Part shown: positions 9,662 through 36,493 of the stretch, one piece after another | Position numbering within the stretch: the first letter of the stretch is position 1 | Layout of the letters: each line of letters begins with the position of its first letter | Assembly: GCF_005083345.1 (NCBI RefSeq) | Contig: NZ_CP034888.1 | Location: 209,380-273,379 of the forward strand | Origin: Buchnera aphidicola (Aphis nasturtii) | GTDB taxonomy: Bacteria > Pseudomonadota > Gammaproteobacteria > Enterobacterales > Enterobacteriaceae | Reading direction: 5' to 3' | DNA length: 64,000 nt | Made by a program: the position numbers and the translations under genes | Notes under the pieces: model-generated | The model's database searches: none | The model's input: the letters and a program-made list of their open reading frames with translations, nothing else | What the model was told of the DNA's origin: nothing

Positions 9662-10044
9662 ATGACTTATAAAAAAATAGCAATTGGAATTATTATAAAA
9701 AAAAAAAAATTTATATTACTAAAGCAAATAAAATTAAATACAAGAAAAACATTTGGGAATTTCCAGGTGGAAAGGTAAAAGAAAATGAAAATGTTATATG
9801 CGGATTAAGACGTGAATTATTAGAAGAAGTGGGTATAAAAATATTAAAGTTTAATTTTTTTCAAGTTAAAAAAATTTTTTATAAAAAAATTAAATTATAT
9901 TTTTTTTTAATAACAAAGTGGAAAGGTAAAGCATGTAGCCAAGAAGGATATAATTACAGTTGGGTTGATTTAAAAAAAATAAAATTTAAAAAATTTCCAA
10001 ATGCTAATTTTACTATAATAAAAAAATTAAATAGCATTAAGTAA
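9662..10044 (+). CDS. mutT: 8-oxo-dGTP diphosphatase MutT, frameshifted at a poly(A) tract
   Basis: MutT hydrolyses 8-oxo-dGTP and so prevents A:T to C:G transversions. From ATG 9662 the frame reads MTYKKIAIGIIIKKKK, then hits an A13 run (9697-9709). The family sequence continues in the next frame as IYITKANK...WEFPGGKVKENENVICGLRRELLEEVGI, which includes a complete Nudix box, to the stop at 10044. Without correction the first frame stops soon after the tract. One added A (14) or two fewer (11) gives an intact 127-residue protein (129 in E. coli). Apart from the tract nothing looks degraded, so it is either rescued by slippage, newly broken, or miscalled. Convergent with coaE (13 bp apart). 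Confidence 0.85.
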
Positions 10045-10057
10045 AAATTAACATTAA

Positions 10058-10711
10058 TTAGTATAATTTAGTTAAATAATTTTTTTTAAAAATTTTTTTT
10101 TTGAATTTATATTTACTAAATAAATATGTATAAAAATTATTTAAATAATAAACGTATGTATCTAATATTTTTATATTTTTATTCTTATTAAAAATAATAT
10201 CATCTGAAATTAAAATTCTTTTATTTCTTCTAGTTTGTTGATAAATTATTTTTTTTGCTTGATATCGACTAATTTTATCTCGTATTATTATACGTTGTAT
10301 TTGAATTTTTTCAGGTGTATCAACTAATAGAATTCGATCTGCTATTGTATTTAGTTTTTTTTCAATTAGCAATGGAACAACCCATAGGCACCAAATTGCG
10401 TTTACTAATTTTATTTGTTTTTTACTCTCTTTATAAATTTCAGGAATTAACATATTTTCTAACCATAATTTTATTTGCTTATCATTAAAAACGTACTTTC
10501 TAAGTAATTTCCGGTTTATTGAATGATTTGAATTTAATATGCTATTTCCAAATTTTTTTTTAATAGAATTAAATATTTCTATGTTTTTTTCTACTATTTT
10601 TTTTCCGATAATATCAGTATCAATAACATTTACACCTATTTTTTTAAAGCTATTAGAAATAGTAGTTTTTCCGCTACCAATGCCTCCAGTAAGTGCTACA
10701 ATATAAGTCAT
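10058..10711 (-). CDS. coaE: Dephospho-CoA kinase
   Basis: It phosphorylates the 3'-hydroxyl of dephospho-CoA, the last step of coenzyme A synthesis. At 217 residues it is near the 206 of E. coli, with a lysine-rich, poorly conserved C-terminal extension. The P-loop is GGIGSGKTT (9-17), followed by NVIDTDIIGKKI (about 29-40, substrate aspartate) and a LLVDTPEKIQIQRIIIRD segment (about 128-145). The window also holds panB and panC at the start of the same pathway. In E. coli coaE lies beside guaC; here they are divergent with 152 bp between them, which must contain both promoters. Confidence 0.94.
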   Translation of the reverse strand: MTYIVALTGGIGSGKTTISNSFKKIGVNVIDTDIIGKKIVEKNIEIFNSIKKKFGNSILNSNHSINRKLLRKYVFNDKQIKLWLENMLIPEIYKESKKQIKLVNAIWCLWVVPLLIEKKLNTIADRILLVDTPEKIQIQRIIIRDKISRYQAKKIIYQQTRRNKRILISDDIIFNKNKNIKILDTYVYYLNNFYTYLFSKYKFKKKIFKKNYLTKLY

Positions 10712-10863
10712 AATTATTTTTTATTTAAGATTATTTAAACATATAAAATATTTATTATCTTAATTAAAATATATAGTATTTCAATAACAATATTTAATAA
10801 ATTTAAAAAATATGTCTATTTTATATATTTTTTATTTTCATATTATTTTAGGAAATTAATTAT

Positions 10864-11913
10864 ATGCGTATAGAAGAAGATATTAAGCTAGGTTTTAAAG
10901 ATGTTTTAATTAGACCAAAGAGATCTACTTTAAAAAGTCGATCTGAAGTTGATCTTGTTCGTCCTTTTACTTTTAAATATTCTGATAATAAATGGTCTGG
11001 TATCCCGATTATTGCTGCCAATATGGATACTATTGGAACATTTGATATGGCTTTATCTTTATCAAATTTTCACATTTTAACTGCAATACATAAATATTAT
11101 TCTTTTGATGAATGGAAAGTTTTTATCAATAAATCTACAGAACAAACATTAGAACATGTTATTGTATCTATCGGAACATCTGATTTAGATTTTTTAAAAA
11201 TTCAAAAAATTTTATTATTATCCTCTCAATTAAAATATATTTGTATTGATGTTGCTAATGGTTATTCAGAATATTTTGTTTCTTTTTTAAAAAAAGTAAG
11301 AGATATGTTTCCTAATAAAATTATTTGTGCTGGAAATGTTGTTACTGGAGAAATGGTTGAAGAACTAATTTTATCTGGAGCTGATATAGTTAAAGTTGGT
11401 ATCGGGCCAGGTTCAGTTTGTACTACAAGAGTTAAAACAGGTGTAGGTTATCCTCAACTTTCGGCTATTATAGAATGCGCAGATGCGGCACATGGATTAA
11501 ATGGCCAAATTATTAGTGATGGTGGTTGTATTGTTTCTGGAGATATAGCAAAAGCTTTCGGAGGTGGTGCGGATTTTGTGATGTTAGGCGGTATGTTATC
11601 AGGTCATTATGAATGCGCAGGAAAAGTTATTAAAGAAAATTTAAAAAAATTTATGTTATTTTATGGCATGAGTTCTATTTCAGCAATGAAACGTTATACT
11701 GGTAAAATTAGAGGATATCGAGCTTCAGAAGGTAAAACAGTGAAGATACCTTTTCGGGGCAATGTCGATATAACTATACGTGACATTTTAGGCGGACTTA
11801 GATCTGCTTGCACTTATGTAGGCGCTCAAAAGTTAAAAGAGTTAACTAAAAGAACTACTTTTATAAGAGTAGGAGAACAAGAAAACTGTGTTTTTAATAA
11901 TTTTACATATTGA
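10864..11913 (+). CDS. guaC: GMP reductase
   Basis: It reduces GMP to IMP with NADPH, letting guanine nucleotides feed the adenine branch. At 349 residues it matches E. coli (347). The fold is that of IMP dehydrogenase: [19 protein letters not shown] near the N-terminus, AANMDTIGT (about 51-59), and the catalytic cysteine loop [18 protein letters not shown] (about 181-198), followed by [20 protein letters not shown] (phosphate site, about 219-238). IMP dehydrogenase was considered, but length, lack of a CBS domain and the enteric GMP reductase pattern favour GuaC. A strong terminator follows. Confidence 0.96.
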
Positions 11914-11951
11914 GATAAATTATATATTATTTTAAAAAATTCAAAAATAAT

Positions 11952-12000
11952 AAAATCAATAAAATTAATTATTATATAGTTGATTTTATTGATTTTTTTT
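11952..12000 (+). terminator. Rho-independent terminator of guaC
   Basis: The left arm AAAATCAATAAAATTAA (11952-11968) pairs with TTGATTTTATTGATTTT (11980-11996), 17 bp with one G-T wobble and an 11-nt loop, and the stem runs straight into a T8 tract (11993-12000). It lies 38 bp after the guaC stop and isolates guaC from aceE. Confidence 0.85.
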
Positions 12001-12143
12001 AGAAATTAATAATTAATTATTTTATAAAATAGACAAGAAATTTTATTTAAAATATTTAATTCTATATCAAGTAATAATTAACTTAATATTTTGAATTTAA
12101 TTTAAATTTTATAATTAAAAATAATATATAAGGAACTTGTACC

Positions 12144-14807
12144 ATGTCAGAAAATTTTTATGATGACGTGGATCCAATTGAAACTAATGATTGGATGCAA
12201 TCAATTGAATCTGTTATTAAAAAAGATGGTATTAAAAGAGCTCGTTTTTTAATTGAAAAAGTTTTACAACAATCTAAAATAAATAAATCAAATTTTTTTA
12301 AATGTTTTTTTACTAGTAATTATGTTAATACAATTAATGATGAAGATGAAGTTGAATATCCTGGTGATTTAATTCTAGAAAAAAAAATTCGTTCCGCTAT
12401 TCGTTGGAATGCTATTATGATGGTATTGCGTGCATCAAAAAAAAACTTAGAATTAGGTGGTCATTTATCTTCTTTTCAATCATCAGCAACTATATATGAA
12501 GTGTGTTTCAATCATTTTTTTCGTGCTAGAAACGATTATGATGGGGGTGATTTAGTTTATTTTCAAGGTCATATTTCTCCTGGAATTTATGCACGATCGT
12601 TTTTAGAAGGTCGTTTATCTATTAAGCAAATCGATAATTTTAGACAAGAAGTTGATGGTAATGGGTTATCTTCTTATCCTCATCCTAAATTAATGCCTAA
12701 TTTTTGGCAATTTCCGACTGTTTCTATGGGGCTCGGTCCTCTTTTTTCTATTTATCAAGCTAAATTTTTAAAATATCTTCATAATCGAGATTTAAAAAAT
12801 ACTTCAAAACAAACAGTTTATGCTTTTTTAGGTGATGGTGAAATGGATGAACCAGAATCTAAAGGAGCTATCTCTATTGCAGTTCGAGAAAAGTTAGATA
12901 ATTTAATTTTTATAATAAATTGTAATTTGCAAAGATTAGATGGTCCAGTTATAGGAAATGGTAAAATTGTAAATGAATTAGAAAGTTTTTTTTATGGAGC
13001 TGGATGGAAAGTAATTAAAGTAATATGGGGCGGGAAATGGGATATTTTGTTAAAAAAAGATAAAACTGGGAAGTTAATTCAATTAATGAATGAAACAATA
13101 GATGGTGATTATCAAACATTAAAATCCAAAAATGGTGCTTATGTTAGAAAACATTTTTTTGGAAAATATAAAGAAACGCTAGAATTAGTTAAAAATATGA
13201 CAGATGAAGAGATATGGAATTTAAATCGAGGCGGTCATGATCCTAAAAAAATGTTTAATGCAATAATAAAAGCCAAAGAAACTAAAGGAAAACCTACAGT
13301 TATTTTAGCACATACTATAAAGGGTTATGGTATGGGCATGATTGCAGAAGGTAAAAATATTGCACATCAGATAAAAAAAATAAATATTAATGGAATTATG
13401 TATATCAGAAATCGTTTTCATATTCCTATATCTGATGAGGAAGTAGAAAAATTACCTTATATTACTTTTAAAAAAAATTCTAAAGAATATTGCTATATGC
13501 AATATCAAAGAAAAAAGTTAGGTGGTTATATTCCATTTCGTTTATCTAGATTTACTAAGCCATTAAATCTTCCAAATTTAATAGATTTTCAGTCATTGTT
13601 AGAAGAACAAAACAAACATATTTCTACTACGATAGCTTTTATTCGTGTTTTGAATTTAATTTTAAAAAATGATTCCATCAAACATTTAATTGTTCCTATT
13701 ATTGCTGATGAAGCACGTACATTTGGAATGGAAGGCTTGTTTAGAAAAATTGGAATTTATAGTTCTGATGGACAAAAATATATTCCCCAAGATCGTGAAC
13801 AATTAGCATATTATAAAGAAGAAAAAAAAGGACAAATATTGCAAGAAGGAATTAATGAATTAGGAGCTGCTTCATCTTGGCTTGCTGCTGCAACTTCTTA
13901 TAGTACTAATAATTTTCCTATGATTCCTTTCTATATTTATTATTCAATATTTGGTTTTCAACGAATTGGTGATCTTTTTTGGGCTGCAGGCGATCAACAA
14001 GCAAGAGGTTTTTTAATTGGAGGGACATCAGGAAGAACAACTTTAAATGGAGAAGGTTTACAACATGAAGATGGTCATAGTCATATACAAGCTTTAACAA
14101 TACCAAATTGTATTTCTTATGATCCTGCTTTTGCTTATGAGGTCGCAGTTATTATACAAGATGGTCTAAGAAGAATGTATGGCCCACTTCAAGAAAATAT
14201 ATATTACTATATCACCACGATCAATGAAAATTACTATATGCCAGCTATGCCCAAGGGTGTGGAACAAGGAATTTGTAAGGGAATTTATAAATTAAAAACA
14301 TTAAATTCTACTGGATTAAAAGTACAATTAATGGGTTCTGGAGCTATTTTACGGTGTGTATGTGAAGCTGCCGAGATTTTATCTAATGATTATTCTATCA
14401 CTACTGATATTTATAGTGTGACTTCTTTTACAGAATTAGCTAGAGATGGAGAAGAATGTATCAGATGGAATATGTTGCATCCAAAAAAAGAAAAGAAAAT
14501 TGCTTATATAAACAAAATTATGAATTCAGCTCCTGCTGTTGCTGCTACCGATTATATGAAATTATTTGCAGAGCAAGTCCGTAATTATATTCCTTCAAAG
14601 GAATATTATGTGCTAGGTACAGATGGTTTTGGGCGATCAGATAGTCGTGAAAAATTACGTAATCACTTTGAAGTTAGCGCTCATTATATTGTATTAGCTT
14701 CTTTAAGTTTATTAGTTAAATTGAATCAGATAAATCAAGAGGTGGTAGAAGATGCAATTATTAAATTTAATATTAATGCGGATAAAATTAATCCGCGTTT
14801 AGCTTAA
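12144..14807 (+). CDS. aceE: Pyruvate dehydrogenase E1 component
   Basis: This thiamine diphosphate enzyme decarboxylates pyruvate and acetylates the lipoyl group of AceF. At 887 residues it equals E. coli AceE. The TPP/Mg motif is GDGEMDEPE (230-238) with NCNLQ (259-263); the pyrimidine domain includes ADEARTFGMEGLFRKIG, and GGTSGRTTLNGEGLQHEDGH is the catalytic histidine region. AAGGA at about 12131-12135 is a good Shine-Dalgarno 8 bp before the ATG. It heads aceE-aceF-lpd. The PdhR regulator gene that precedes it in E. coli is absent, so control is probably constitutive. The 143 bp between the guaC terminator and aceE must hold the promoter, but no box stands out. Confidence 0.98.
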   Translation: MSENFYDDVDPIETNDWMQSIESVIKKDGIKRARFLIEKVLQQSKINKSNFFKCFFTSNYVNTINDEDEVEYPGDLILEKKIRSAIRWNAIMMVLRASKKNLELGGHLSSFQSSATIYEVCFNHFFRARNDYDGGDLVYFQGHISPGIYARSFLEGRLSIKQIDNFRQEVDGNGLSSYPHPKLMPNFWQFPTVSMGLGPLFSIYQAKFLKYLHNRDLKNTSKQTVYAFLGDGEMDEPESKGAISIAVREKLDNLIFIINCNLQRLDGPVIGNGKIVNELESFFYGAGWKVIKVIWGGKWDILLKKDKTGKLIQLMNETIDGDYQTLKSKNGAYVRKHFFGKYKETLELVKNMTDEEIWNLNRGGHDPKKMFNAIIKAKETKGKPTVILAHTIKGYGMGMIAEGKNIAHQIKKININGIMYIRNRFHIPISDEEVEKLPYITFKKNSKEYCYMQYQRKKLGGYIPFRLSRFTKPLNLPNLIDFQSLLEEQNKHISTTIAFIRVLNLILKNDSIKHLIVPIIADEARTFGMEGLFRKIGIYSSDGQKYIPQDREQLAYYKEEKKGQILQEGINELGAASSWLAAATSYSTNNFPMIPFYIYYSIFGFQRIGDLFWAAGDQQARGFLIGGTSGRTTLNGEGLQHEDGHSHIQALTIPNCISYDPAFAYEVAVIIQDGLRRMYGPLQENIYYYITTINENYYMPAMPKGVEQGICKGIYKLKTLNSTGLKVQLMGSGAILRCVCEAAEILSNDYSITTDIYSVTSFTELARDGEECIRWNMLHPKKEKKIAYINKIMNSAPAVAATDYMKLFAEQVRNYIPSKEYYVLGTDGFGRSDSREKLRNHFEVSAHYIVLASLSLLVKLNQINQEVVEDAIIKFNINADKINPRLA

Positions 14808-14820
14808 GGAGTGAGATAAA

Positions 14821-15984
14821 GTGCATATTGAAGTTAAAATGCCTGATATTGGTTTAGATCAAGTAGAAGTAATAGAAATCTTAGTTAAATTAAATGAAGA
14901 AGTTCAAATAGAACAAGGATTAATAACTGTTGAAGGCGAAAAATCTTCTATGGAAATACCGTCTCCAATATCCGGAGTGGTAAAAGAAATCAACGTAAAA
15001 ATTGGAGATAAAGTTTCTACTAATGCTATTATAATGATTTTTACAACTAATGAAAAAAATCCTAATAATCAAAAAAAAGACGACATTGATATTCTTAATA
15101 TTAAAACATCAACTATTAATACTGAAAAAAATATAGTACATGCAACACCATCAATTAGGAGATTAGCGCGTGAATTAAATATTAATTTAAGTGATATTTT
15201 AGGTTCTGGTAGAAAAAATCGCATTTTAAAAAATGATCTTGAATTATATACAAAAAATGTTTGTCATGATAGACATCAATTAAAAGTAGAAACAATTGAA
15301 ATCAATCATTTACAAAAGATTGTTGGAAATAATTTGTATAATAATTGGATAAATATACCTCATGTAACACAATTTGAAGAGGTAAATATCACTACATTAG
15401 AAGAATTTCGTAAGCATTATAATACAGAAGAATGTAAAAAAAATATTCATCATAGCAATATTACTATATTAATTTTCATTATTAAAGCAGTATCGCGAGC
15501 ATTATTGGAATTTCCGATTTTTAATAGCTCTTTATCTGTAGATAAAAAAACAATTATTTTTAAAAAATATATTAATATTGGAATTGCTGTAGATGTTTCA
15601 AATGGTTTACTTGTTCCAGTATTAAAAAATGTTGATAAAAAAAGTATTATTAATTTATCGTCTGAATTAATATCACTTTCTGAAAAAGCACGTAAAAATA
15701 AATTAGATAAATTAGATATGAAAAACAGTTGCTTCACAATTTCAAATTTAGGAGGTATTGGTGGAAATTGGTTTACGCCAATTATTAATTCTCCTGAGGT
15801 TGCAATTCTGGGAGTTTCAAAAGCAGTTATTAAACCAGTCTGGGATGGTAAAATATTTATTCCATCTTTGATATTACCTTTATCGTTATCTTATGATCAT
15901 CGTGTTATTAATGGAGCAGACGCAGCTCGTTTTATTTGTTTTCTCAAGAAATTATTATCTGATATACGATTTTTAGTTATGTAA
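14821..15984 (+). CDS. aceF: Dihydrolipoyllysine acetyltransferase (pyruvate dehydrogenase E2), single lipoyl domain
   Basis: AceF carries the swinging lipoyl arm and transfers acetyl groups to CoA, forming the core of pyruvate dehydrogenase. At 387 residues it is far shorter than the 630 of E. coli because only one lipoyl domain remains instead of three: lipoyl lysine at 41 in VEGEKSSMEIPSP, E1/E3-binding domain at about 108-140 (ATPSIRRLAREL...), then the catalytic domain with His360 in YDHRVINGADAARF. Start is GTG at 14821, preceded by TTAAGGAGTGAG, a strong ribosome site that decides it. It follows aceE by 13 bp. One-domain E2 is functional in other bacteria and is the form known from Buchnera. 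Confidence 0.97.
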   Translation: MHIEVKMPDIGLDQVEVIEILVKLNEEVQIEQGLITVEGEKSSMEIPSPISGVVKEINVKIGDKVSTNAIIMIFTTNEKNPNNQKKDDIDILNIKTSTINTEKNIVHATPSIRRLARELNINLSDILGSGRKNRILKNDLELYTKNVCHDRHQLKVETIEINHLQKIVGNNLYNNWINIPHVTQFEEVNITTLEEFRKHYNTEECKKNIHHSNITILIFIIKAVSRALLEFPIFNSSLSVDKKTIIFKKYINIGIAVDVSNGLLVPVLKNVDKKSIINLSSELISLSEKARKNKLDKLDMKNSCFTISNLGGIGGNWFTPIINSPEVAILGVSKAVIKPVWDGKIFIPSLILPLSLSYDHRVINGADAARFICFLKKLLSDIRFLVM

Positions 15985-16035
15985 TTTTATATTGATCAAA
16001 CATCTTTTATAAAATTAATCATTAAAGAGGTTTTC

Positions 16036-17460
16036 ATGCATCAAAAAATTCAAGCAGAAGTAGTAGTTTTAGGATCAGGACCTGCTGGTTATTCTGCGGC
16101 TTTTCGGTGTTCTGATTTAGGTTTAGAGACTGTTTTAATAGAACGTTATGAAAATTTAGGAGGTGTTTGCTTAAATGCAGGATGTATTCCTTCAAAATCT
16201 TTATTACATATAGCAAAAGTAATAAAAAATGCAAATGATTTATCTAAAGCAGGAGTATTTTTTAATAAACCTTCTATTGATATTAAAAAAATTCAAGATT
16301 GGCAAAAACATATCATTAATAAACTTACAAATGGTTTATATAATATAAGTAAAAAAAGAAATATAAGATTTATTCAAGGGACGGCTTATTTTGAAAATGA
16401 TCATAATATTATTGTAGAAAATAATAAAAATCAATTTGAAGTATCTTTTAAATATGCTATTGTTGCCACTGGTTCTCATTCAATTAAAATACCTTCATTA
16501 CCAGCACAAGATTATAGAATTTGGGATTCTACAGATGCTTTGTCATTGAACAATATTCCTAATCGTTTTTTAATTATAGGAGGAGGAATTATTGGTTTAG
16601 AAATGGCAACAATATACAGCGCGTTAGGATCCAAGGTAGATATTGTAGATCGTTTTAATGTTTTTCTTCCTGCAGTAGATCAAGATGTGTCTGAAATGTA
16701 TATTAAATCGATTAATAAAAGATTTAATTTGTTTTTAAATACTCAGGTTAAAAATATTGAATCTAACGAAAATGGTTTAATTGTTTCTACAGAAGGTAAT
16801 AATCAAAGTTATAATATTTGCTATGATAATGTTTTAGTTGCAGTAGGACGTAATCCTAATACTAAAAATTTAGCATTAGATAAAATTGGAGTGAAATTAA
16901 ATGATTTTGGTTTTATTGAAGTAAATAACCAACTTAGAACTAACATATCTAATATTTATGCAATTGGTGATGTTATAGGTTTTCCTATGTTAGCTCATAA
17001 AGCTATTCATGAGTCACATATTGTTGCTGAAGTAATTTCTGGTAAAAATCATTATTATGAACCTAAGGTAATACCTTCTGTAGCTTATACTGATCCTGAA
17101 ATTGCTTGGGTAGGTTTTAATGAAAAAGATGCTATAAAATCAAATATTGATTACGAAGCTTCTGTTTTTCCTTGGAATTCTTCTGGAAGAGCAAATGCTT
17201 CAAATTGCACAACAGGTATGACAAAGTTAATCTTTAATAAAAAAAATAAACAACTAATTGGAGGGGCTATAGTAGGTGAAAATGCTGGAGAATTGATTAA
17301 TGAAATTACATTAGCAATTGAAATGGGATGCGATGTAGAAGATCTTTCCCTTACTATTCATGCTCATCCAACCTTAAGCGAATCAATTTGTTTAGCATCG
17401 GAGATTTTCCAAGGTACAATAACAGATTTATTAAATTTAAAAAAAAATACTTTTACATAA
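16036..17460 (+). CDS. lpd: Dihydrolipoamide dehydrogenase (E3)
   Basis: This flavoprotein reoxidises the lipoyl groups of pyruvate dehydrogenase (and 2-oxoglutarate dehydrogenase, if present) with NAD. At 474 residues it equals E. coli. It shows the FAD-binding VLGSGPAGYSAA (11-22), the redox disulphide GGVCLNAGC (Cys45/Cys50), the NAD motif IIGGGIIGLEMA (about 179-190), the second FAD site YAIGDVIGFPMLAHKA (about 310-325) and the catalytic His444/Glu449 in HAHPTLSE. The ribosome site AAAGAGG precedes the ATG. It is the last gene of aceE-aceF-lpd, 51 bp after aceF. Its stop codon TAA forms the outermost three bases of the long inverted repeat that follows. Confidence 0.98.
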   Translation: MHQKIQAEVVVLGSGPAGYSAAFRCSDLGLETVLIERYENLGGVCLNAGCIPSKSLLHIAKVIKNANDLSKAGVFFNKPSIDIKKIQDWQKHIINKLTNGLYNISKKRNIRFIQGTAYFENDHNIIVENNKNQFEVSFKYAIVATGSHSIKIPSLPAQDYRIWDSTDALSLNNIPNRFLIIGGGIIGLEMATIYSALGSKVDIVDRFNVFLPAVDQDVSEMYIKSINKRFNLFLNTQVKNIESNENGLIVSTEGNNQSYNICYDNVLVAVGRNPNTKNLALDKIGVKLNDFGFIEVNNQLRTNISNIYAIGDVIGFPMLAHKAIHESHIVAEVISGKNHYYEPKVIPSVAYTDPEIAWVGFNEKDAIKSNIDYEASVFPWNSSGRANASNCTTGMTKLIFNKKNKQLIGGAIVGENAGELINEITLAIEMGCDVEDLSLTIHAHPTLSESICLASEIFQGTITDLLNLKKNTFT

Positions 17461-17552
17461 TATTTAATATAATTCTTTTAGAACAAGAAAAGATTATAGA
17501 AATTATATTTCTATAATCTTTTCTTGTTCTAAAAGAATTATATTAAATATTA
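17458..17552. terminator. Perfect 46-bp inverted repeat, probable bidirectional terminator between lpd and speD
   Basis: The left arm 17458-17503 and right arm 17507-17552 are exact reverse complements at all 46 positions, with the 3-base centre TAT. The repeat begins at the lpd stop codon and ends 32 bp short of the speD stop (17585), so it can end transcription from both convergent genes. Its inner part contains AAAAGATTATAGAAAT and complement; base composition is mixed rather than simple repeat. This is far longer than an ordinary terminator stem. Role inferred from position; perfection checked base by base. Confidence 0.9.
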
Positions 17553-17584
17553 ATTTTTTAGAAATATATAAAATTATATAAATT

Positions 17585-18391: not shown

Positions 18392-18418
18392 TTTAATTAC
18401 TCTCCTATGAAAGGATTT

Positions 18419-19279: not shown

Positions 19280-19486
19280 GGTATTTTTTACCCTTAAATA
19301 TATTAATAATAAATTATTTAGTAATTGATTTTGAGTGTATTGAAACAATAGAGTTTGCTTTTAGATTTTTTAAAGAAGGATAATGATTTTTGTTAAATAT
19401 TTTAAATATTGTATAATTATTTTTTTTTATTCAAAAATATTTAAATTTAATAAAGATTATCAAAAATATTAAAATAATTCTATTAT

Positions 19487-20203: not shown

Positions 20204-20230
20204 ATTAATTATTTTTAATTATTTAATTTT

Positions 20231-20581: not shown

Positions 20582-20613
20582 TATATTCTCGAAATATTTA
20601 GATATTGTTTAAA

Positions 20614-20632
20614 ATAAGATATCATATCTTAT
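20614..20632. repeat. Perfect 19-bp dyad upstream of erpA
   Basis: ATAAGATAT and its exact reverse complement ATATCTTAT flank a single central base. It lies 33-51 bp before the erpA start, where an operator or promoter would be expected. The centre is too tight for an ordinary RNA hairpin unless the inner pairs open. No known regulator can be assigned; IscR controls erpA in E. coli, but its site is not recognisable here. Chance occurrence in AT-rich DNA is possible. Confidence 0.4.
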
Positions 20633-20689
20633 CATGAAATAAATAATTTAAAGAAATGAATATAGATTAAGTATAAATAATTTATTTAA

Positions 20690-20725: not shown

Positions 20726-20809
20726 GTTAATTATATAATAAAAAATATAGAAAAATAATATAACTGAACTATATTTTATAGTTAAATTTTTTATTTTTCA
20801 TTTGAAAAA

Positions 20810-24557: not shown

Positions 24558-24569
24558 ATTGTCACTTTT

Positions 24570-26002
24570 TTATTTTTTAATAAAAATTTTATTAGCTATT
24601 TTTGCTATATCTCCAGCACCTTGTATTAAAATAATATCATTTCCGCTTAGATAAGGAATAACTGAATCTAGTATTAATTTATAATGTTTAATTAGAACTA
24701 TATTCATTTCTTTTGTTTTTTTTATATCAATTAACAGTGATTTGCTCTCTGCTCCAGCAATAATATTTTCATTGGCAGAATAAACATTCAATATTAATAG
24801 TGTATCTACTCGGGATAAAATCCTCACAAAATCATTATATAAATTATGTGTTCTTGTGTATCGATGAGGCTGAAAGATCATTATTAAATTTTTTTCAGGC
24901 CAACTAGTTCTTATTGTTTTAATATTTTCAGATAACTCAGTAGGATGATGTCCATAATCATCTATTAACATGATATTTTTTTTTAAAATATTATTTTTTT
25001 TTATTGAGATTTTTCCAAGATATTCAAATCTTCTATAAGTACCTTGAAAATTTTTTAATGATTTTAAAATTATTTGATCAGATATTTTTTGATTTGCAGC
25101 TATTGCTATTGCAGCTGTTGCATTTAAGGCATTATGTTTTCCAGGTATTTTTAAAATCACTTCTAAATTAGATTGATTTTTTCGAACCAAAGTAAAACGA
25201 GAAATAAAATCATTTTGTTGATAGCAAGAAATATGAATTTCAGCATTTTTATTGAATCCGTATGTAATTATTTTACATTTTATTTTTGGCATTATATCTT
25301 GTATAGCAGCATTATCGATGCATAATATAACAGTACCATCTGAGGGAATTATATTTATAAATTTTAAAAATGAATTTTTTAATAAATTAAAATCATTATT
25401 ATAATAATTCATATGATCAGGTTCAATATTTGTTACAATAATATTTTTTGGAGTTAAATAAAGAAACGAACTATCACTTTCGTCTGCTTCTGCGATTAGA
25501 TAATCAGAACATCCTAATTTGGAATAAGAATTAATTGATTTTATTAAGCCACCATTAATAATAGTAGGATCTAATTTATTTTCATTAAATATATCAAAAA
25601 TCATTGCAGTAGTAGTTGTTTTTCCATGTGTACCAGAAATAGCTATTCCAAATTTATCTCGCATTAATATTTGTAACATTTCTGCTCTTAATAATATAGG
25701 AATTTTTTTTTTTTTCCTTCTATAATTTCTTCATTATTTAGTGAAATAGAACTAGATATAACAATTAAATCAATATTTTTAATATTTTTTTTAGAATGAT
25801 TAAAATAAACAATTGCTCCTAATTTTATTAATTTTTTTGTAATTTCAGTTTTCAATATATCTGAACCACTAATTTTATATCCTAATTGTAATAAAATCAA
25901 AGCAATTCCATTCATTCCAGAACCTCCAATACCTATGAAATGAATATTATTAAATGATTTTTTTTTAAAGAAATTATGTGTTTTTATATTTATTGTATTC
26001 AT
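24570..26002 (-). CDS. murC: UDP-N-acetylmuramate-L-alanine ligase, frameshifted at a poly(A) tract
   Basis: MurC adds the first amino acid (L-alanine) to UDP-MurNAc. The N-terminal part from ATG 26002 reads [14 protein letters not shown] (nucleotide motif, about 22-35) and runs to GKKKK, coded by an A13 run (plus strand T13, 25703-25715), then stops at once in that frame. In the next frame the protein continues as [20 protein letters not shown], then [12 protein letters not shown] (Walker A), [10 protein letters not shown] and the ligase C-domain to 24570. An A14 (or A11) tract would give 477 residues, close to the 491 of E. coli. No other damage is visible. Part of the dcw cluster between murG and ddlB. 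The enzyme is normally essential for peptidoglycan. Confidence 0.9.
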
Positions 26003-26026
26003 TTTATATATTTAGTTATCAAGAAT

Positions 26027-27088
26027 TTATTTTTTAGAAATATTTTGAATTATTTTGAAAATTTTTTTTGTAGAGTTTCCAACTCTCAAAGAAAATGCTT
26101 TTTCTGCCATTACGAGTAATTTTTTTCTATTTAAAGAGTTTAATATTTTTAATATTACATTTATATTAAATGCAGATTGATTAATAATTTTTGCAGCACC
26201 ATTATCTTCTAAATCTTGTGCATTTAACAATTGTTGCTGATCTTTATGTGGATATGGTATAAAGATTGCACCGAGTCCTACAGTGGTAATTTCGCTTATG
26301 GTTAATGCACCAGAACGAGATATAATTACATCAGCCCATGTGTACGCAGAAGCTATATCTTCGATAAAAGCGTTAATTATATGTTCATATAATCCGTACT
26401 TTTGATATTTTTTTTTCGTTTTTTCTAGCTCATTTTTCCCTGTTTGATGCCAAATAACAATTTTAGATTTTAAAAAAAATGATATTTTAGGTAAAATACT
26501 GTTAAAAATAGATGCGCCTTGACTTCCTCCAATAATTAATATTCTTAGAGGACCAGATCTATTTTTAAAGCGGTTAATAGGAGCTGGAATGTTTATAATA
26601 TCTTCACGTACTGGATTGCCTACAATTTCAGCGTTAGGTAAAGACCCTGGAAAAGCTTGCATGTTTTTTGTAGATATTTTAGATAGTAATTGGTTTGTAA
26701 GACCTGGGATTTTATTTTGTTCGTGTAAAATAAAAGGAATTTTTGAAGTCCATGCTGCTATTCCTCCAGGTCCAGATACATACCCTCCCATACCTAATAT
26801 AATATTTGGTAAATAACTATTGATAATTTTTTTAATTTTCCAATAAGATTTAAATATATGTATTGGAGCAGAAATTAAAGTTTTTAAATTAGCGTTTCTT
26901 AATCCATTTATTTGAATGAAATGAATTTTAATATTATGTTTAGGCACAATATCTGATTCTATTTTATTTCTTGTTCCTATCCAGTTCACATTCCATCCAT
27001 GTTTAATTAAGTATCTTGCTATAGTAATAGCTGGAAATACATGTCCACCACTACCACCTGCTATAATTATAATTTTTTTGGAACTCAT
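26027..27088 (-). CDS. murG: UDP-GlcNAc:lipid I N-acetylglucosaminyltransferase
   Basis: MurG turns lipid I into lipid II on the inner face of the membrane. At 353 residues it equals E. coli (355). It has the glycine-rich G-loop [12 protein letters not shown] (about 9-20), [14 protein letters not shown] (about 99-112), [11 protein letters not shown], a third glycine loop [12 protein letters not shown] (about 188-199) and the UDP-GlcNAc site [10 protein letters not shown] (about 261-270). Its ATG overlaps the ftsW stop by four bases (ATGA), indicating translational coupling. Intact, in contrast to its neighbours ftsW and murC. Confidence 0.97.
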
Positions 27089-28240
27089 TTATAATTTTCC
27101 TTAGGTAAAGCTTGATTTTCACTTAATCTTGATTCAAAATCAATTCGTAATAAAATACAAATAGCTATTAAATTAACAATTAAGCTTGAACCTCCATAGC
27201 TAATTAATGGTAAAGTTAAACCTTTAGTTGGCAATATTCCAGTCACCGCTCCAATGTTAATTAGTGTTTGAAAACTAAACCATAAACCAATAGAACAAGC
27301 TAAAAAACCTGAAAAAATTTCTTTTTTTTCTAAAGATTTTTGCCCAATATACATGGCTCGAAAAGAAATAATAAAAATAGTTAATAATATTAAAAAACAG
27401 CCTATATAACCTAATTCTTCTCCTATAATAGAAAATATAAAATCACTATGAGCTTCGGGTAAATAATTTAGTTTTTGTATTGAATTTCCTAAGCCTTGTC
27501 CAAAAAAATGACCTCTTCCCAAAGCTATCAATGATTGTGTTAATTGGTATCCATTTCCAAATGGATCTTTCCAAGGATTCCAAAATGATAATACTCTATT
27601 AATGCGATATGGTTTTATTAAGATTAAGAATATTATTATTAGTGAAACTATAATAATAATTGAAAAAAATTGTTTTATTTTTGCCCCGGAAAGAAATAAA
27701 ATTGATAAAGTAGTAAGAAATAAAACAACTACCGTTCCCAAATCAGGCTCTGCTAATAAAAGAACTGATTGCAAAGTAATAATACACATGGGTTTAAAAA
27801 ATCCCCAAAAATTATTATGTACCTCTTTAATTTTTCTTGAAAGGTAATTAGAAATGTAAAGAAAAGAAGAAATTTTACATATTTCAGAGGGTTGTATATG
27901 CAATATACCTATGTTGATCCATCTATAAGATCCATGTACTGATTTGCCTAGTAAAAGTACAAAAATAAGTAGTGAAGTTGAAAATATTAATATAAAATTA
28001 CTATATTTTTTCCAAAAAATAACAGGGATTCGTAAAATGAATAAAGATAATAAAAATATTAGAGCAAAGTAAAACACTTCCCTTTTTGCAAAAAAAAATG
28101 GATCTTTATATAAACTTTGTCCTATAGGTATAGATGTAGATATTACCATGATTAATCCAGTAATACATAAAGCTAAAGTTAACCATACTAGTAATCTATC
28201 ATATAATATAATATTTTTTTTTTATTTTTTTTGAAAACAT
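27085..28240 (-). CDS. ftsW: Peptidoglycan glycosyltransferase / lipid II polymerase FtsW, start region frameshifted
   Basis: FtsW is the SEDS-family polymerase of septal peptidoglycan, partnered with FtsI. The longest plain open frame starts at 28149 and lacks the first membrane helix. Directly upstream the same frame reads [20 protein letters not shown], matching the first helix of E. coli FtsW (YDRTLLWLTFGLAAIGFI), but has no start codon and is closed by a TAA. A better start is ATG 28240-28238, which overlaps the murD stop (TAATG); it joins the helix only if the A10 run (plus T10, 28214-28223) is read as 9 or 12. That gives 384 residues. Later motifs [14 protein letters not shown] and [14 protein letters not shown] are intact. 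Confidence 0.85.
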
Positions 28241-29556: not shown

Positions 29557-30622
29557 TATGTACCCTTAAAGATATAATTCCTATTAATAACAATATAAAG
29601 GATATTATCCAAAATCTAATAGTAATTAAAGTTTCTGATAATCCCTTTACTTCGTAATGGTGATGAATTGGAGCCATTTTAAATATTCTTTTTTTTCTAA
29701 TTTTAAAATAAATAATCTGTAATATTACAGACATAGTTTCAAAAACGAAAACTCCACCCATTATCATTAATAATAATTCTTGATGTAATAATATAGATAT
29801 CATTCCTAATGCACCTCCTAGTGATAAAGATCCAACATCACCCATAAATATTTGAGCTGGATAAGTATTAAACCATAAAAAACCTAGTCCAGAACCAATA
29901 ATTGATGCGCATAAAACACTTAATTCATTGGCTTGTTTAGAATAAAAAATATTTATATAATTACATAAATGAATTTCAGAACTACAAAAAGCAATTAAAC
30001 CTAATCCAAATGATATAAAAATTACTGGCATTATTGCTAGCCCATCTAATCCATCTGTTAAATTTACGCTATTACTTGTACCTACAATAACAAGATAAGA
30101 TAAAAATATATAAAAATAATTCATTTTTATAAGGATTTGACTATAAAAAGGAATTATCAATTCAATATAAATATTGCTTTCTTTATTGAATTGCATAATA
30201 AAAATGATTAATATAGCAATTATTGACAAACAAAAAAATTTATATGATATTTTTAATCCATTTGAATTTTTAAACTTAATTTTTTGATAATCATCTAAAA
30301 ACCCGATTAAACCATATCCTAATATAATAGTAAGAACATACCAAATGTATTTATTATATAAATCACAATAAAAAAAAATAGATAAACATATTGATATAAT
30401 AATTAATATTCCTCCCATCGTAGGAGTTTGGTTTTTATTAAAATGACCTATAGGTCCATTTATTCTTATAATCTGGAATGTTTGTAATTTTTTTAAATAA
30501 GATATAACATATGGCCCAAGAAATAAATTTATAAAAAATGATGTTAGTAAACTAAATATTATTCGGTAGGAAATAAAATTAAATATTTTACAATTTAAGT
30601 ATTTATTAATTAGAAATATCAT
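29546..30622 (-). CDS. mraY: Phospho-N-acetylmuramoyl-pentapeptide transferase
   Basis: MraY links phospho-MurNAc-pentapeptide to undecaprenyl phosphate, making lipid I. At 358 residues (360 in E. coli) it has the expected set of about ten membrane segments. Conserved catalytic loops are QTPTMGGILI (about 65-74), FLDDYQK (about 107-113, aspartate pair), NSVNLTDGLDGLA (about 183-195), FMGDVGSLSLGG (about 259-270) and the MAPIHHHYEVKG histidine motif (about 315-326). It overlaps murF upstream by 17 bp and murD downstream by 11 bp. The lipid carrier is made by UppS, encoded at 48167. Confidence 0.97.
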   Translation of the reverse strand: MIFLINKYLNCKIFNFISYRIIFSLLTSFFINLFLGPYVISYLKKLQTFQIIRINGPIGHFNKNQTPTMGGILIIISICLSIFFYCDLYNKYIWYVLTIILGYGLIGFLDDYQKIKFKNSNGLKISYKFFCLSIIAILIIFIMQFNKESNIYIELIIPFYSQILIKMNYFYIFLSYLVIVGTSNSVNLTDGLDGLAIMPVIFISFGLGLIAFCSSEIHLCNYINIFYSKQANELSVLCASIIGSGLGFLWFNTYPAQIFMGDVGSLSLGGALGMISILLHQELLLMIMGGVFVFETMSVILQIIYFKIRKKRIFKMAPIHHHYEVKGLSETLITIRFWIISFILLLIGIISLRVHNAI

Positions 30623-31987
30623 TTTTTTTATACTCTTTTATTAAATATTTGACAATTGTTTCCATTTGCATATTACGTGAGCCTTTGATTAAAATCGTAC
30701 TTGTGTTTTTTTTTGAAATTTTTTCTTTTAATTTTTTCTCTAATATATGTTTATATTTTTCTGAAAAATGTTTTCCATTTTTACATATTTTAAAAATTTC
30801 ACGACTATACTTACCTAAACTGAAAATATGATCAATATTTGATAAATTAGCAATATTACCTATAATTTTATGATATAAAATGCTTTTTTCACCTAATTCC
30901 GCCATATCTCCTACGACTAATATTTTATAACCTGGCATTTTTTCTAAAACTTTAATTGCTATGATCATAGAAGCCACATTTGAGTTATATGTATCATTAA
31001 TTAAAATTTTATTTTTACTTAACTTAATTGGCTCTAATCTTCCTGGAATAATAGGAGATTCTGATAATCCAATTTGAATTTGTTTTAATGGTATATGAAC
31101 CGAAAATGCAAGAGCACTAGCAGCTAGAGCGTTAGATATATTTTGATACCCTAAATATGGTAATACAATTTTTATTTTTCCGCATGGTGTATGCATAATA
31201 AAAGATGTTTGGTTTGAGTGAATTTCAATATTAGTAGCAAAGAAATTACTTTCTTTTTTTTTTCGATAGAAAAATACAATATTTTTTTATTTTGAATTTT
31301 TTTTTTCCATTGTGAAAGGTGATGGCTATCTAAATTAATAATTACTGTGCTTTTATTTTTTAAATAAGATAATATTTCTGATTTTTCTTTTGATATACCT
31401 AGTAATGATTTAAAACCTTTTAAATGCGCATAATAAATATTGTTTATTAACGCGATATTTGGTTGAGAGATTTTTGAAACGTAACGAATTTCACCAGGAT
31501 TATTAGCTCCTAGTTCAATTAATCCATATTTATCTGTTTTTTTTAATCTTAATAAAGTAATAGGTACTCCTATATGATTGTTTTCGTTATTCGTTGTATA
31601 TATTATATGGTGTTGTTTTTTAAGTATAGAAGCAGTCATTTCTTTCACCGAAGTCTTTCCACAAGATCCAGTAATAGCTAATATTTTTGGGTCTACTATA
31701 TTTCGAATCCAAGTAGCAATTTGCCCCAAAGCAATAGTAGTATTTTCAACTATAATATAAGAAATAAAAGATATAATTTTTCGATTAGTGATAATTGCAG
31801 TGCATCCTTTTTGCAAGGCTTCTTCGATAAATATATGTGCATCAAATTTATTGCCTTGTAATGCAATAAATAGGGTATTTGATATGATTTTTTTACTATT
31901 TATGCTAATATTATCTATTATAATGTTTTTTCCATATAATAAACCATTTGTAATACTAGCAATTTTTTTTAACGAAATAGGAATCAT
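30606..31987 (-). CDS. murF: UDP-N-acetylmuramoyl-tripeptide-D-alanyl-D-alanine ligase, frameshifted at a poly(A) tract
   Basis: MurF adds D-Ala-D-Ala to the stem peptide. From ATG 31987 it reads the Mur N-domain, Walker A ITGSCGKTSVKEMT (about 105-118) and the central domain to FSIEKKK. That lysine run is coded by an A10 run (plus T10, 31254-31263); the frame then drifts into unrelated sequence and stops. In the next frame the family sequence resumes as ESNFFATNIEIHSNQTSFIM (matching SDFTATNIHVTSHGTEFTL in E. coli), then GRLEPIKLSKNKILINDTYN and ILIKGSRNMQME to 30606. An A11 (or A8) tract would give 460 residues (452 in E. coli). A second A10 tract in the same gene (31297-31306) is in frame. 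It overlaps murE by 32 bp. Confidence 0.9.
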
Positions 31988-33479
31988 GTTTTTTTTCCAA
32001 TAAATTTAAAACTATTGCTTGATCTGAATAGTAAATATTCTGATTACCAATTATTTGATAATTTTCATGTCCTTTACCAGCAATAAAAATTATATCGTTA
32101 GCATTTGATCGAAAAAAAACATAAGAAATAGCTTTTTTTCTATTGGGGATAATTATTATTTTTTCTTTTTTTATACATCCAGTGATAATTTCTTTAATTA
32201 TTGTATTTGGATTTTCATTTCTAGGATTATCATTAGTAATGATCACTTTATCTGCTATTTTTTCTGCAATCTTCCCCATTACAGGGCGTTTTTTTTTGTC
32301 TCTTTCTCCTCCACATCCAAATATACACCATATTTTTTTTTTAGAATATTGTAATTTAATAGCATCTAGTGCTTTTTTTAAAGCATCAGGAGTATGAGCA
32401 TAATCTATAATACAAATTGGTTTTCTAATAAAATCAAATTTTTGCATACGCCCGTATATTGGTTTAAGTTTTATAGATGTTTTAATAAGAGCAGATAATT
32501 TATAATTCATTTCTAACATACATGCTAGTGATAATAATAAATTTTCTACGTTAAAACTTCCTATTAAACAACTAGATAAAACGCCTTTTCCCCAGCTAGA
32601 TTCAAATGTTATATCAGTTTTTTTACTATCAATTTTGATAGAAATAGCATTTATCCATTTTGTAGCATATTTTTTTTGTCTAGAATCTTGAATTGTAACT
32701 GCAACTGTATATTTATCAGAAAATTTTTTTAACCAATTTTGTGCATATTTATCGTTAGCATTTAATATTATTTTGTTTACTTTATGATCAGTAAAAAGTG
32801 AAAGTTTAGCTAATTCGTATTTTTGCATATTTTCATGATAATCTAAATGATCTTGTGTTAAATTAGTAAATATTGCAGTATGAAATAAGATATTTTTAAC
32901 GCGATTTTGGACTAAACCATGTGACGAAACTTCCATGGTAACTAATTTGACTTTATTTAATACTGAATGTAAAAAAGATTGTATATCGATAGCTGATGAA
33001 GTTGTATTAATTGCAGGTTTTAAGAAGTTATGTAAACCATTTCCAAGAGTTCCCATTGTTGCAATTTTATTTCCTAATAATTCATTCCATTGATTAATTA
33101 GTTGTGCCACTGTAGTTTTTCCGTTTGTCCCGGTAATTCCAATTACTTTTAATCGGCTACTTGGTTTATGATAAAATCTTTCAGCTAAAATTGAAAGTTT
33201 TTTAGAAATGTTAAAAAAAGATATTATCGGAATATTATTAATATAATTTATTTTTCCATGTTGTTTTTTTTTTGTAGTTTCAGATAATATTGCTGCTACT
33301 TTTCTAGAAATCGCGTGAAAAATAAAACTATGCCCATCTTTTCTTTTTCCTTTTACGGCTATAAAGACATCTTTATTAGATATTAATTTTCTACTATCTA
33401 GAACTAGATTATTAATATTTATTTTTGGAAGATTTTTAATCCAAGGTGACAAAAAATGTTTTAAGTTATTTTCTTTCAT
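31956..33479 (-). CDS. murE: UDP-N-acetylmuramoyl-tripeptide synthetase (meso-diaminopimelate-adding)
   Basis: MurE adds meso-diaminopimelate as the third stem residue; DapD, encoded at 41844, lies on the pathway that makes it. At 507 residues it is near the 495 of E. coli. Walker A is GITGTNGKTTVAQL (about 114-127). Substrate choice is shown by DNPRNENP (about 415-422), the DNPR motif typical of enzymes that use meso-diaminopimelate rather than lysine. Two A10 tracts (plus T10 at 32333-32342 and 33264-33273) are both in frame, which argues against a general undercall of every long tract. It lies 24 bp after ftsI. Confidence 0.97.
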   Translation of the reverse strand: MKENNLKHFLSPWIKNLPKININNLVLDSRKLISNKDVFIAVKGKRKDGHSFIFHAISRKVAAILSETTKKKQHGKINYINNIPIISFFNISKKLSILAERFYHKPSSRLKVIGITGTNGKTTVAQLINQWNELLGNKIATMGTLGNGLHNFLKPAINTTSSAIDIQSFLHSVLNKVKLVTMEVSSHGLVQNRVKNILFHTAIFTNLTQDHLDYHENMQKYELAKLSLFTDHKVNKIILNANDKYAQNWLKKFSDKYTVAVTIQDSRQKKYATKWINAISIKIDSKKTDITFESSWGKGVLSSCLIGSFNVENLLLSLACMLEMNYKLSALIKTSIKLKPIYGRMQKFDFIRKPICIIDYAHTPDALKKALDAIKLQYSKKKIWCIFGCGGERDKKKRPVMGKIAEKIADKVIITNDNPRNENPNTIIKEIITGCIKKEKIIIIPNRKKAISYVFFRSNANDIIFIAGKGHENYQIIGNQNIYYSDQAIVLNLLEKKHDSYFVKKNC

Positions 33480-33503
33480 TAAATTTTATTTTTAATTTAT
33501 TTT

Positions 33504-35213
33504 TTATAAATTATCTGGTTTAATTTTCATTGTTTTTAATACTGATACCATTATCTTACTGAACACTGGAGCAGAAACCGCACCGCCATAATATTGATTG
33601 CCTTGTGGATTATCAATAACAATAATTAAAGCAAATTTTGGGTTTTTAGCTGGAGCAACACCTGCAGTATAGGCTATATATTTTTTAATGTAACATCCAT
33701 GAATACCAACTTTTTTTGCTGTTCCTGTTTTAATAGCAATACGATATTTTTGTGCATCTATTTGATTAATATTTTCATCTGGTTCTACAGTTTTTTCCAT
33801 CATATTAAGCACTTTTTTTACATATTTTTGAGGGAAAATTCTTTTTTCGTATAATGGATGATTAATTTTAATAATAGATAATGGTTTATAAATTCCATAA
33901 CTTCCTATTGTTGTATATAATCTAGCTAATTGCAGTGGTGTGACCATTAATCCATATCCAAAAGAAAAAGTTGCTTTTTCTAAATTTGATAAATTTTTCT
34001 TTTTAGGTAACAAGCCTTTGTGCTCTCCAATTAATCCCAAATTAGTTTTCTGACCTAATCCAAATTTCAAATATGCATTAATTAAATTTTTACTTTTCAT
34101 AGCAAGTGCAATTTTTGATACACCAACATTGCTAGATTTTTTTAATATTCCGGAAATATCTAATTTTTCATGATACGAAACATCTTTAATTTGATGCTTT
34201 TGAATAAAAAAAGGCTTGGTATTTATTACGGAATTTTCTTTGATAATACCTTCTTTTAATGCTTCCATAATAACTATTGGTTTAACTGTAGAGCCTGGTT
34301 CAAAAATATCTGAAATCGCTCGGTTTCTAAAATTTTTTGAAATTATGTATTGTTTTTCATTTGGATTATATGCAGGACTAGTTGCCATTGACAATATTTC
34401 TCCAGTTTTGATATCAATTAAAACAGCAATTCCAAAATCTGCTTTATTTTTATTTACACCTTCACATAATTTTTCATAAGTAATAGTTTGTAGTTCTTTG
34501 TTAATGCTTAATATTAAATTTTTAGAATTAGATTTGTGAATTAGAGATTCATTTTCAATTACATGACCTTGGTTATCTTTTCTTATTTTTCTTTTACCTG
34601 GTTTTCCTGTTAAGTCATTATTAAAACTTTTTTCAACACCTTCTATACCTTCGTCATCTATATTATTAAATCCAATAAGTTGTGCAGCGATTTTTCCAGA
34701 AGGATAATAACGTTTTGCTTCTTCCGTTAAATATATACCAGGTAGTTTTAGTTTTTTAATGTATTCACCAACTTCAGGAGTGATTTGACGTACTAAATAA
34801 ATAAATTTTAAATTTTTATTAAAATTTGCATGAAAAACAATTTTTTTTAATGGAATAGAAAGAACATTAGATAATGCTTTCCATCTTATACTATTTTCAA
34901 TATCTATATCGTTTTGAATCATACTAGGATCTATAAATACTGCATTTACTGGAACGGTAACAGCTAATGGATATCCAAGTCGATCATTAATAATCCCCCT
35001 AGTATTTATTACAGGTTGTATTCTTAATGTTCTACGATCTCCTTCATATGAAAGTTTTTTAGAATCAATTACTTGAAGAAATATCATACGTGATGTTAAG
35101 ATAATCAAAAATGATAAAACAATAATACATAATGCTATAAAACGCCAATTTATATAATTTTTTTTTCTTATGTTGTTTTTTTTAAATAATTTTATATTTT
35201 TTTTGATGTACAT
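33504..35213 (-). CDS. ftsI: Peptidoglycan D,D-transpeptidase FtsI (PBP3)
   Basis: FtsI cross-links septal peptidoglycan with FtsW. At 569 residues it is near the 588 of E. coli. It has a basic cytoplasmic tail, one membrane anchor (about 24-46), the pedestal domain with [14 protein letters not shown] (about 72-85), and a transpeptidase domain with all three active-site motifs: SxxK in FEPGSTVKP (about 304-312), SSN in [10 protein letters not shown] (about 357-366) and KTGT in IKTGTAKK (about 491-498). With mrcB destroyed, FtsI is the only transpeptidase gene left in this window. The 95 bp between the corrected ftsL stop and ftsI hold nothing notable. Confidence 0.97.
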
Positions 35214-35308
35214 TTTATAATTATCTTATTTTAAAATTTTTAAAAAATTTAATTCAATGTATATTTTATTAAAATAGTTGTTAATTTAAAATAATTAAAT
35301 ATTTTTTA

Positions 35309-35556
35309 CTAATTAATTATAGGCATGGAAAGAGTATTTTTTTCAATAATTAAATTTCTCCATTCATCATTTTTTTTTTTTCTTCTATACGTAATTTTTC
35401 TTGTTCAGTAATCAACATTCTAGTTTTATAGACTATTATGACAATAGAATTAGCAGACAATATTATTGCAAACAAGAGGATTAAGTGTATTTTTGCATAT
35501 AAAAGAAAATCATTTTTAATGATGATTGGTAAATCATAGTGTTGTTTTTTATTCAT
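35309..35556 (-). CDS. ftsL: Cell division protein FtsL, frameshifted at a poly(A) tract and C-terminally short
   Basis: FtsL is a small bitopic protein that, with FtsB and FtsQ, signals to FtsWI. The plain frame (35556-35350) gives 68 residues: a short tail, one membrane helix (about 20-43) and the start of a coiled coil ending in KKKMMNGEI. An A12 run (plus T12, 35370-35381) precedes that end. With 13 A's the next frame reads [20 protein letters not shown] and stops at 35309; the [12 protein letters not shown] part matches EWRNLILEENAL of E. coli FtsL, so the short end is a frameshift product. Even corrected (82 residues) it lacks the last third of the 121-residue enteric protein. It overlaps rsmH by 8 bp. 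Confidence 0.85.
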
Positions 35557-36493
35557 ATTTTTTTAACTCTGCTGTACGTAATATAGCACTTCGAGATTTA
35601 GGATTTTTTTGAATTTCTTCATAAGTTGGTAACATTCGATTTATAATTTTTAATTTGCAAATTTTAAGTTTTTCTATTTCTTTTTCTGTTATAGGCATAC
35701 CGTAAGGAATTTTCGCTCTCATACTATGTTTGAGCATAAATTTTTTAATTATTCTATCTTCTAATGAGTGGAAACTAATGACTGTTATACGTCCACCTGG
35801 TTTTAATATTTTTAACGATTCTTCTAATGCATTACTTATTTCTTCTAATTCTTGATTAATATAAATCCGGATTGCTTGAAATGTTCGTCTAGCTGGATGT
35901 TTAAAAATATTTTTTTTTGGTATTGCTTTTTTGATAATATTTACTAATTCTAAAGTTTCTGTTATTTTTTTTTTTCTATTATAATCTTTAATTGCATATG
36001 CAATTTTTTTTGCAAAACGTTCTTCTCCAAAATTTTTTAAAACGAAAATAATTTTTTCAGCACTTGCTTGAACAATCCAATTAGATGCTGTAATACCACA
36101 AGTTTGATTCATTCGCATGTCTAGAGGTCCATTTTGTTTAAACGAAAAACCTCTTTTATAATCTAATATTTGTGATGAAGATACTCCTAAATCAAATAAT
36201 ATTCCATCTACTTTTCTAATAATCTTGTTGGATTTAGCATAATTTAAAATTTTTGAAAAATTGTCATGAATTATAGAAAAACGTTTATCTTTAATTTTAT
36301 TCCCTATTAATATAGAATTTAAATCTTTATCAATAGCATATAATTTTCCATCTTTTCCTAGTTTTTTTAAAATTTCAATCGCATGCCCACCCATTCCAAA
36401 TGTACTATCAATGTAAATGCCGTTTTCTTGAATTTTTAATGATTTAATTAGTTCTTTTTTCATCACAGGAATGTGTTTTATATTTTGATTCAT
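35549..36493 (-). CDS. rsmH: 16S rRNA (cytosine(1402)-N(4))-methyltransferase
   Basis: RsmH (MraW) methylates C1402 in the decoding centre of 16S rRNA, whose gene is at the end of this window. The open frame extends to 36556, but the ATG at 36493 is chosen: it gives [11 protein letters not shown], matching the family start, yields 314 residues (313 in E. coli), and leaves the upstream terminator hairpin (36524-36560) outside the gene. The SAM-binding segment [14 protein letters not shown] (about 30-43), FDLGVSSSQ and [15 protein letters not shown] (about 208-222) are conserved. It opens the dcw cluster; mraZ, which precedes it in E. coli, is absent. Confidence 0.95.

Follow-up and report, generated by a model that had tools for sequence, protein, structure and literature searches.

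Frame-broken murC, murF and ftsL of Buchnera probably remain functional through slippage on long A-tracts

Three genes of the cell division and cell wall cluster of Buchnera aphidicola (Aphis nasturtii), murC, murF and ftsL, each carry a single frame break at a long A-tract and are open over the rest of their length. They lie in a stretch of 64,000 nucleotides (contig NZ_CP034888.1, positions 209,380 to 273,379; hereafter the window) for which a first-pass annotation, made from the sequence alone, had proposed rescue by polymerase slippage. Comparison with other Buchnera genomes makes it probable that the three genes are still working, yielding full-length protein via slippage, and have not been lost. 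The breaks occur at the same sites in relatives, nearly always in one sense, and the sequence beyond them is under full constraint, so that the earlier proposal appears well supported on comparative grounds.

Results

The genes of the cluster are arranged on the minus strand in the order mraW, ftsL, ftsI, murE, murF, mraY, murD, ftsW, murG, murC. Homology places the change of frame at A13 in murC, A10 in murF and A12 in ftsL, in each case in the -1 sense (Table 1). The murF break lies near residue 240 and cuts the ATP-binding middle domain, which spans residues 105–292; separate halves of MurF are therefore unlikely to work.

Recurrence of the breaks was scored for ten division and wall genes in 35 genomes of one species each, the own species and 34 relatives. 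In murF the break recurs at one homologous tract, whose length ranges from A9 to A14 across species, in 29 of them, 28 times in the -1 sense and once (in G051) in the +1 sense. For ftsL the count is 19, of which 18 are in the -1 sense and one, in G048, is in the opposite sense, on runs of A9 to A18; the longest of these, an out-of-frame A18, is found in G009 (L047; taken as the symbiont of the Tokyo pea aphid), where murF is in frame. Breaks in murC near residue 98 were found in ten genomes and in murE near residue 174 in five. Altogether there are 73 breaks, 69 of them in the -1 sense, and 34 of the 35 genomes hold at least one. The excess of one sense corresponds to p = 2e-16 if the tips of the tree are assumed to be independent, which they are not. 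In a clade of 14 genomes that we take to be Aphidini, murF is broken in all 14, murC in nine (near residue 98) and murE in six (at any site). The murF states in the chromosomes taken as Ak, Ua, Sg and Ap Tokyo, and the breaks in murE and mraY of Sg, agree with those given in the relevant passages of PMC3164680. G051 (L115; taken as Buchnera of Melanaphis sacchari) has six breaks in the cluster, two of them +1, which reflects either more decay or a noisier assembly.

Breaks are tied to long runs: 71 of the 73 lie in a zone holding an A-run of at least nine. Among sense-strand runs, none of the 5281 of A5–A8 is broken, compared with 8 of 250 at A9, 26 of 114 at A10 and 19 of 46 at A11, counts that assume the break to sit at the longest nearby run (in 33 zones there are two or more runs of at least five). 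Tract length is not the whole story, and the site matters too. At the four sites in murF, ftsL, murC and murE, 56 of 93 runs of at least ten A are broken, versus 7 of 113 at all other sites of the ten genes. Shared ancestry inflates this contrast, and for some species the murF count takes in a second run close by. The ten genes contain 67 sites with at least nine A. Conservation is widest at the murF site, which has such a run in 34 of 35 genomes, and at the ftsL site (33 of 35); the site that ranks third has it in 21. No break was found at the sites with at least nine A in ftsI (21 genomes) and murG (19 genomes).

Purifying selection extends beyond the breaks in murF, murC and ftsL. For codons 258–450 of murF, the median dN/dS between genomes that are both broken is 0.256 (351 pairs with dS < 1.3), which compares with 0.234 for the upstream part of murF (339 pairs) and 0.228–0.276 for ftsI, mraW, murG and murD (526–528 pairs). 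Over the same residues no stop was found among the mapped codons (165–193 of 193) in the 35 genomes; apparent stops come from alignments over-extended at the breaks or from the C-terminal end, as checked for murF. The pN/pS ratio of the ftsL tail is 0.204 in broken and 0.234 in in-frame genomes, and that of the downstream part of murC is 0.335 versus 0.354 within one clade. Relaxed constraint and further lesions, the marks of a decaying pseudogene, were sought in these three genes and not found.

Parsimony was applied to the frame states on a tree built from six genes and rooted at its midpoint, without an outgroup. For murF and for ftsL alike, -1 is the unique most-parsimonious state at the root. 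The reconstruction for murF then requires six reversions to the reading frame and a single shift to +1; that for ftsL requires seven reversions, three further breaks and a single shift to +1. Parsimony of this kind speaks weakly to the root, and the broken states of murF and ftsL may be ancestral in the genus set. The scarcity of the +1 state holds independently of the root. Exits from -1 over murF, ftsL and murC (whose root state is 0) led 16 times to the in-frame state and twice to +1 (p = 0.001); deletion bias alone would favour changes from -1 to +1.

All five breaks listed by the first-pass annotation exist, as confirmed by the tract positions, by homology (murC, murF, ftsL, mutT) and by the frame of the ftsW ATG, and their senses are as it gave them, -1 in mutT, murC, ftsL and murF and +1 in ftsW. 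The five do not form a uniform set: mutT is located outside the cluster, and the sense of ftsW is opposite. The ATG of ftsW at 28240 and the conserved YDR motif are in different frames, the change falling a few codons after the ATG. This is the weakest of the five breaks, situated in an unconserved N-terminal tail where an A8 stands beside the A10. A-runs following the ATG put it out of frame in 12 of the 13 readable genomes of the 14-genome clade; the state is -1 in nine, +1 in three and in frame in one. No match to mutT was found in 7 of the 36 genomes of the genus set, and in the 25 readable genomes the gene is in frame in 19, +1 in five and -1 in one. The one-sense rule does not hold strictly for all genes and was dropped in that form: adding the N-terminal sites of ftsW (9:3) and mutT (1:5) brings the ratio to 79:12.

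Coding A-tracts were also scored in the examined stretches of the own genome. The cluster is enriched for broken A-tracts, yet it is not alone in having them. Three of seven coding tracts of at least ten A are broken in the cluster when ftsW is left out, versus 3 of 62 elsewhere (Fisher p = 0.012; p = 0.002 with ftsW included; both post hoc), and of the 68 tracts of at least ten that this assembly has outside the cluster, 61 keep the frame. The three longest coding A-tracts are all broken, as claimed, inside the window; outside it, among the tracts of at least 12 that were listed, the seven that show homology all keep the frame, and an A13 and an A14 are among them. The A10–A11 tracts described as in frame in dksA, murE (two) and murF (one) are so at 3507, 32333, 33264 and 31297; the dksA tract at 3507 was in frame in the first scoring and scored as a junction in the refined scoring. 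Two junction tracts considered as breaks were ruled out, being the FliM/FliN and HscB/HscA boundaries. The three broken tracts outside the cluster are in mutT, a MIP/glpF-like gene and a CTP_transf_like gene. The MIP/glpF-like gene has a -1 break at an A10 (C1:335993-336002; L061:5994), and the CTP_transf_like gene, of coaD/nadD type, a -1 split at an A11 (C1:481380-481390; L067:2381) that is also present in G010. A T16 at C1:78-93 (L054), near the start of the main contig, has no coding homology and is possibly an assembly end effect.

Table 1. Frame-broken genes of the window and their A-tracts (tract lengths in coding sense; positions are those of the window).
Feature	Position	Strand	Remarks
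murC, two frames	24570..26002	-	N-domain 25688-26002 (PF01225); middle and C domains 24570-25679 (PF08245, PF02875)
A13, murC break, residue ~98, -1 sense	25703..25715	-	broken here in 10/35 species
murF, two frames (31172-31987, 30606-31196)	30606..31987	-	break inside ATP-binding middle domain
A10 (followed by G), murF break, residue ~238-245, -1 sense	31254..31263	-	at least A9 in 34/35 species, broken in 29/35
ftsL, two frames	35309..35553	-	alignable part starts at 35553; last ~22 residues, conserved, lie past the break
A12, ftsL break, residue ~57, -1 sense	35370..35381	-	at least A9 in 33/35 species, broken in 19/35
ftsW, conserved part in one open frame, candidate ATG at 28240 in another	27085..28240	-	homology
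A10 (A8 just upstream) before conserved ftsW part, +1 sense, candidate start	28214..28223	-	
mutT (NUDIX), frame-broken near N-terminus, -1	9662..10044	+	sequence; NUDIX PF00293 on downstream frame
A13 at mutT break	9697..9709	+	sequence

Materials and Methods

The genome under study comprises 641,028 bases in three contigs and belongs to a genus set of 36 Buchnera genomes. G005 matches neither murC nor murF and was excluded from all cluster tables. Frames of murC and murF were referred to G009 (640,681 bases) and those of ftsL to the in-frame genome G007. The ftsL break of G048 was missed by tblastn and added by hand, and G008, whose ftsL tail is not alignable, was left out of the ftsL counts. 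Values of dN/dS were taken from pairs with dS below 1.3 and exclude the genomes G046 and G051. mutT has a match in 29 of the 36 genomes; G013, G019 and G051 were left unscored and G017 is unreadable, which leaves 25. An identical MurC fragment on a contig of 631,301 bases (P0001) carries no source and was not counted as a second strain. The survey of tracts in the own genome covered 222,648 of the 641,028 bases (the window and 18 stretches) and left out the two small contigs; C1:613408, at an edge, was given no call. The 14-genome clade was presumptively labelled Aphidini on the basis of its named members (the symbionts of Aphis glycines, Aphis helianthi, Protaphis terricola, Melanaphis sacchari and Schizaphis graminum), the six-gene tree and aphid classification.

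Discussion

We infer that the molecular step is slippage of RNA polymerase. The enzyme would slip on A-runs of about nine or more, and a share of the transcripts would gain one extra A, or otherwise regain the frame, permitting synthesis of full-length MurC, MurF and FtsL; -1 sites would be the ones restored because one A is added in the transcript. The tracts of murF and ftsL are nearly fixed in the genus, with the -1 state accepted and the other out-of-frame state nearly absent, and in this model the breaks would be old and inherited. In passages of PMC5574713, 151 of 157 transcription insertions in Buchnera fall in homopolymer runs, most of them of one base, and RNA:DNA hybrids of nine bases are reconstructed; a run of nine is about as long as such a hybrid. 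A review (PMC5009743) gives, in the section concerned, a range of 12–50% of transcripts corrected for frameshifted wall genes of aphid symbionts and a gene of an ant symbiont.

Several points weigh against this interpretation. The passages of PMC5574713 report no restored frame in Buchnera transcripts at the depth of that study. Since the tips share ancestry, tip counts overstate the significance of the one-sense excess. Two breaks depart from the association with A-runs of at least nine, that of murD in G019 (-1; an A7 beside a T8) and that of ftsW in G012 (a T10). Moreover, ftsW is broken in the opposite sense in the own species and two relatives (G000, G044, G050), and mutT is +1 in five of the six genomes where it is broken; both of these breaks are so near the N-terminus (~20 codons at most) that translation could begin at a different start codon.

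A further point is that a ribosomal -1 shift on the A-run, of the A AAA AAG type, predicts the same frame as one inserted A and would likewise make full-length proteins. The murF run ends in AAG in the own genome and in most genomes of the Aphidini clade, and the own murF has a slippery heptamer in the zero frame (AAA AAG preceded by A); any long A-run offers one. Such a heptamer requires only six A and a G, although just one of the 73 breaks (murD of G019) is in a zone without an A- or T-run of at least nine. In addition, the 60-base segment that follows the murF tract gives folds no more stable than those of simple base shuffles (z from -0.5 to +1.2; 13 sequences, simple hairpins only), which indicates no stimulatory hairpin downstream of murF at this level of folding. 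Because of the tie to runs of at least nine and the lack of such a hairpin we regard ribosomal shifting as the second choice, unlikely as the sole explanation; it may add to slippage.

The remaining explanations dispense with rescue. The first-pass annotation had noted that homopolymer undercalling would fit, and indeed most of the breaks go in one direction, and the longest runs of the window are the ones that carry them. Yet the murF break is common to 29 of the 35 assemblies, at the same site and in the same sense in 28 of them, three of which are taken as published chromosomes (Ak, Ua, Sg), and most other long tracts of the own assembly (61 of 68) are in frame, so that assembly error is highly improbable; a miscall confined to the own strain may apply to the A13 of murC, the A13 of mutT or the A12 of ftsL. 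The view that the genes are recent pseudogenes on the way to loss, with wall synthesis disappearing, draws on the absence of nearly all of the pathway from Buchnera of most other aphid subfamilies (passages of PMC9116674) and on the count of several murF inactivations in PMC3164680, as excerpted. We consider it very unlikely given that dN/dS beyond the break resembles that of intact genes, that stops are absent, that parsimony makes the broken state old with returns to frame, and that Buchnera of Rhopalosiphum maidis makes a wall although its murC, murE and murF are scored as lost (PMC9116674, same passages). Nor do we give much credence to two cooperating polypeptides made from the two frames. 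The murC break is near the boundary of the N-terminal and middle domains and its second frame has its own ATG, whereas the murF break cuts through a domain and the ftsL break severs a tail of 22 residues; a new start, moreover, would not demand one sense of shift.

Slippage rescue in Buchnera and recurrent breaks of murF are already in print. Tamas and co-workers are said to have described such rescue on poly(A) tracts in 2008, for both Buchnera and Blochmannia, with immunostaining in the case of murF. Compared with that system, the present set is followed over 35 species, is mostly of one sense at the same sites, includes ftsL and murC, and has a broken state that parsimony suggests to be old. 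The aphid of the 2008 work is named as Rhopalosiphum padi in a passage of PMC3164680 (2011), which also gives murF as broken in 5A, Tuc7, Ak, Ua and Sg and intact in Ap Tokyo, and murE and mraY as broken in Sg. Where that paper, in the same part, arrives at four independent inactivations of murF, parsimony over 35 genomes yields one old break and six returns. Frameshifts in Blochmannia (Wernegreen et al. 2010, as related in passages of PMC4389277 and PMC3017870) likewise persist across species in genes that show no detectable decay; that case concerns another genus and, as far as these passages go, other genes. Rescue of an interrupted gene by transcriptional frameshifting is also described, in the portion of PMC4256274 concerned, for tssM of Citrobacter rodentium, a single gene in another bacterium. 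The ftsL site, the genus-wide, one-sense and site-specific pattern, and a link to the reported absence of murC, murE and murF from Aphidini symbionts were not found in the literature searched, which covered few subscription papers and is no proof of novelty.

For the Aphidini, passages of PMC9116674 (2022) state that Buchnera lack murF, murC and/or murE and propose compensatory mechanisms for the wall made in Rhopalosiphum maidis; its methods exclude any coding sequence that has an internal stop or a frameshift. Similarly, an excerpt of PMC10591338 (2023) lists murF in only 29% of 38 Buchnera of Aphidinae. In our data the wall genes of Aphidini symbionts are present, though often broken, and constraint is normal in murF and murC, which may bear on the paradox of the Rhopalosiphum maidis wall. 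It is tempting, if rather doubtful, to go further and to regard -1 reading through a fixed A-tract as the ancestral, selected mode of expression of murF and ftsL, in which site-specific transcriptional slippage would set MurF and FtsL below their cluster neighbours; MurC and MurE would have joined in Aphidini, and several steps towards lipid II would then depend on slippage. The passive shared control of division and wall synthesis suggested in the first-pass annotation would be a further, conjectural consequence. Pipelines that discard frameshifted genes will misstate the capabilities of such symbionts.

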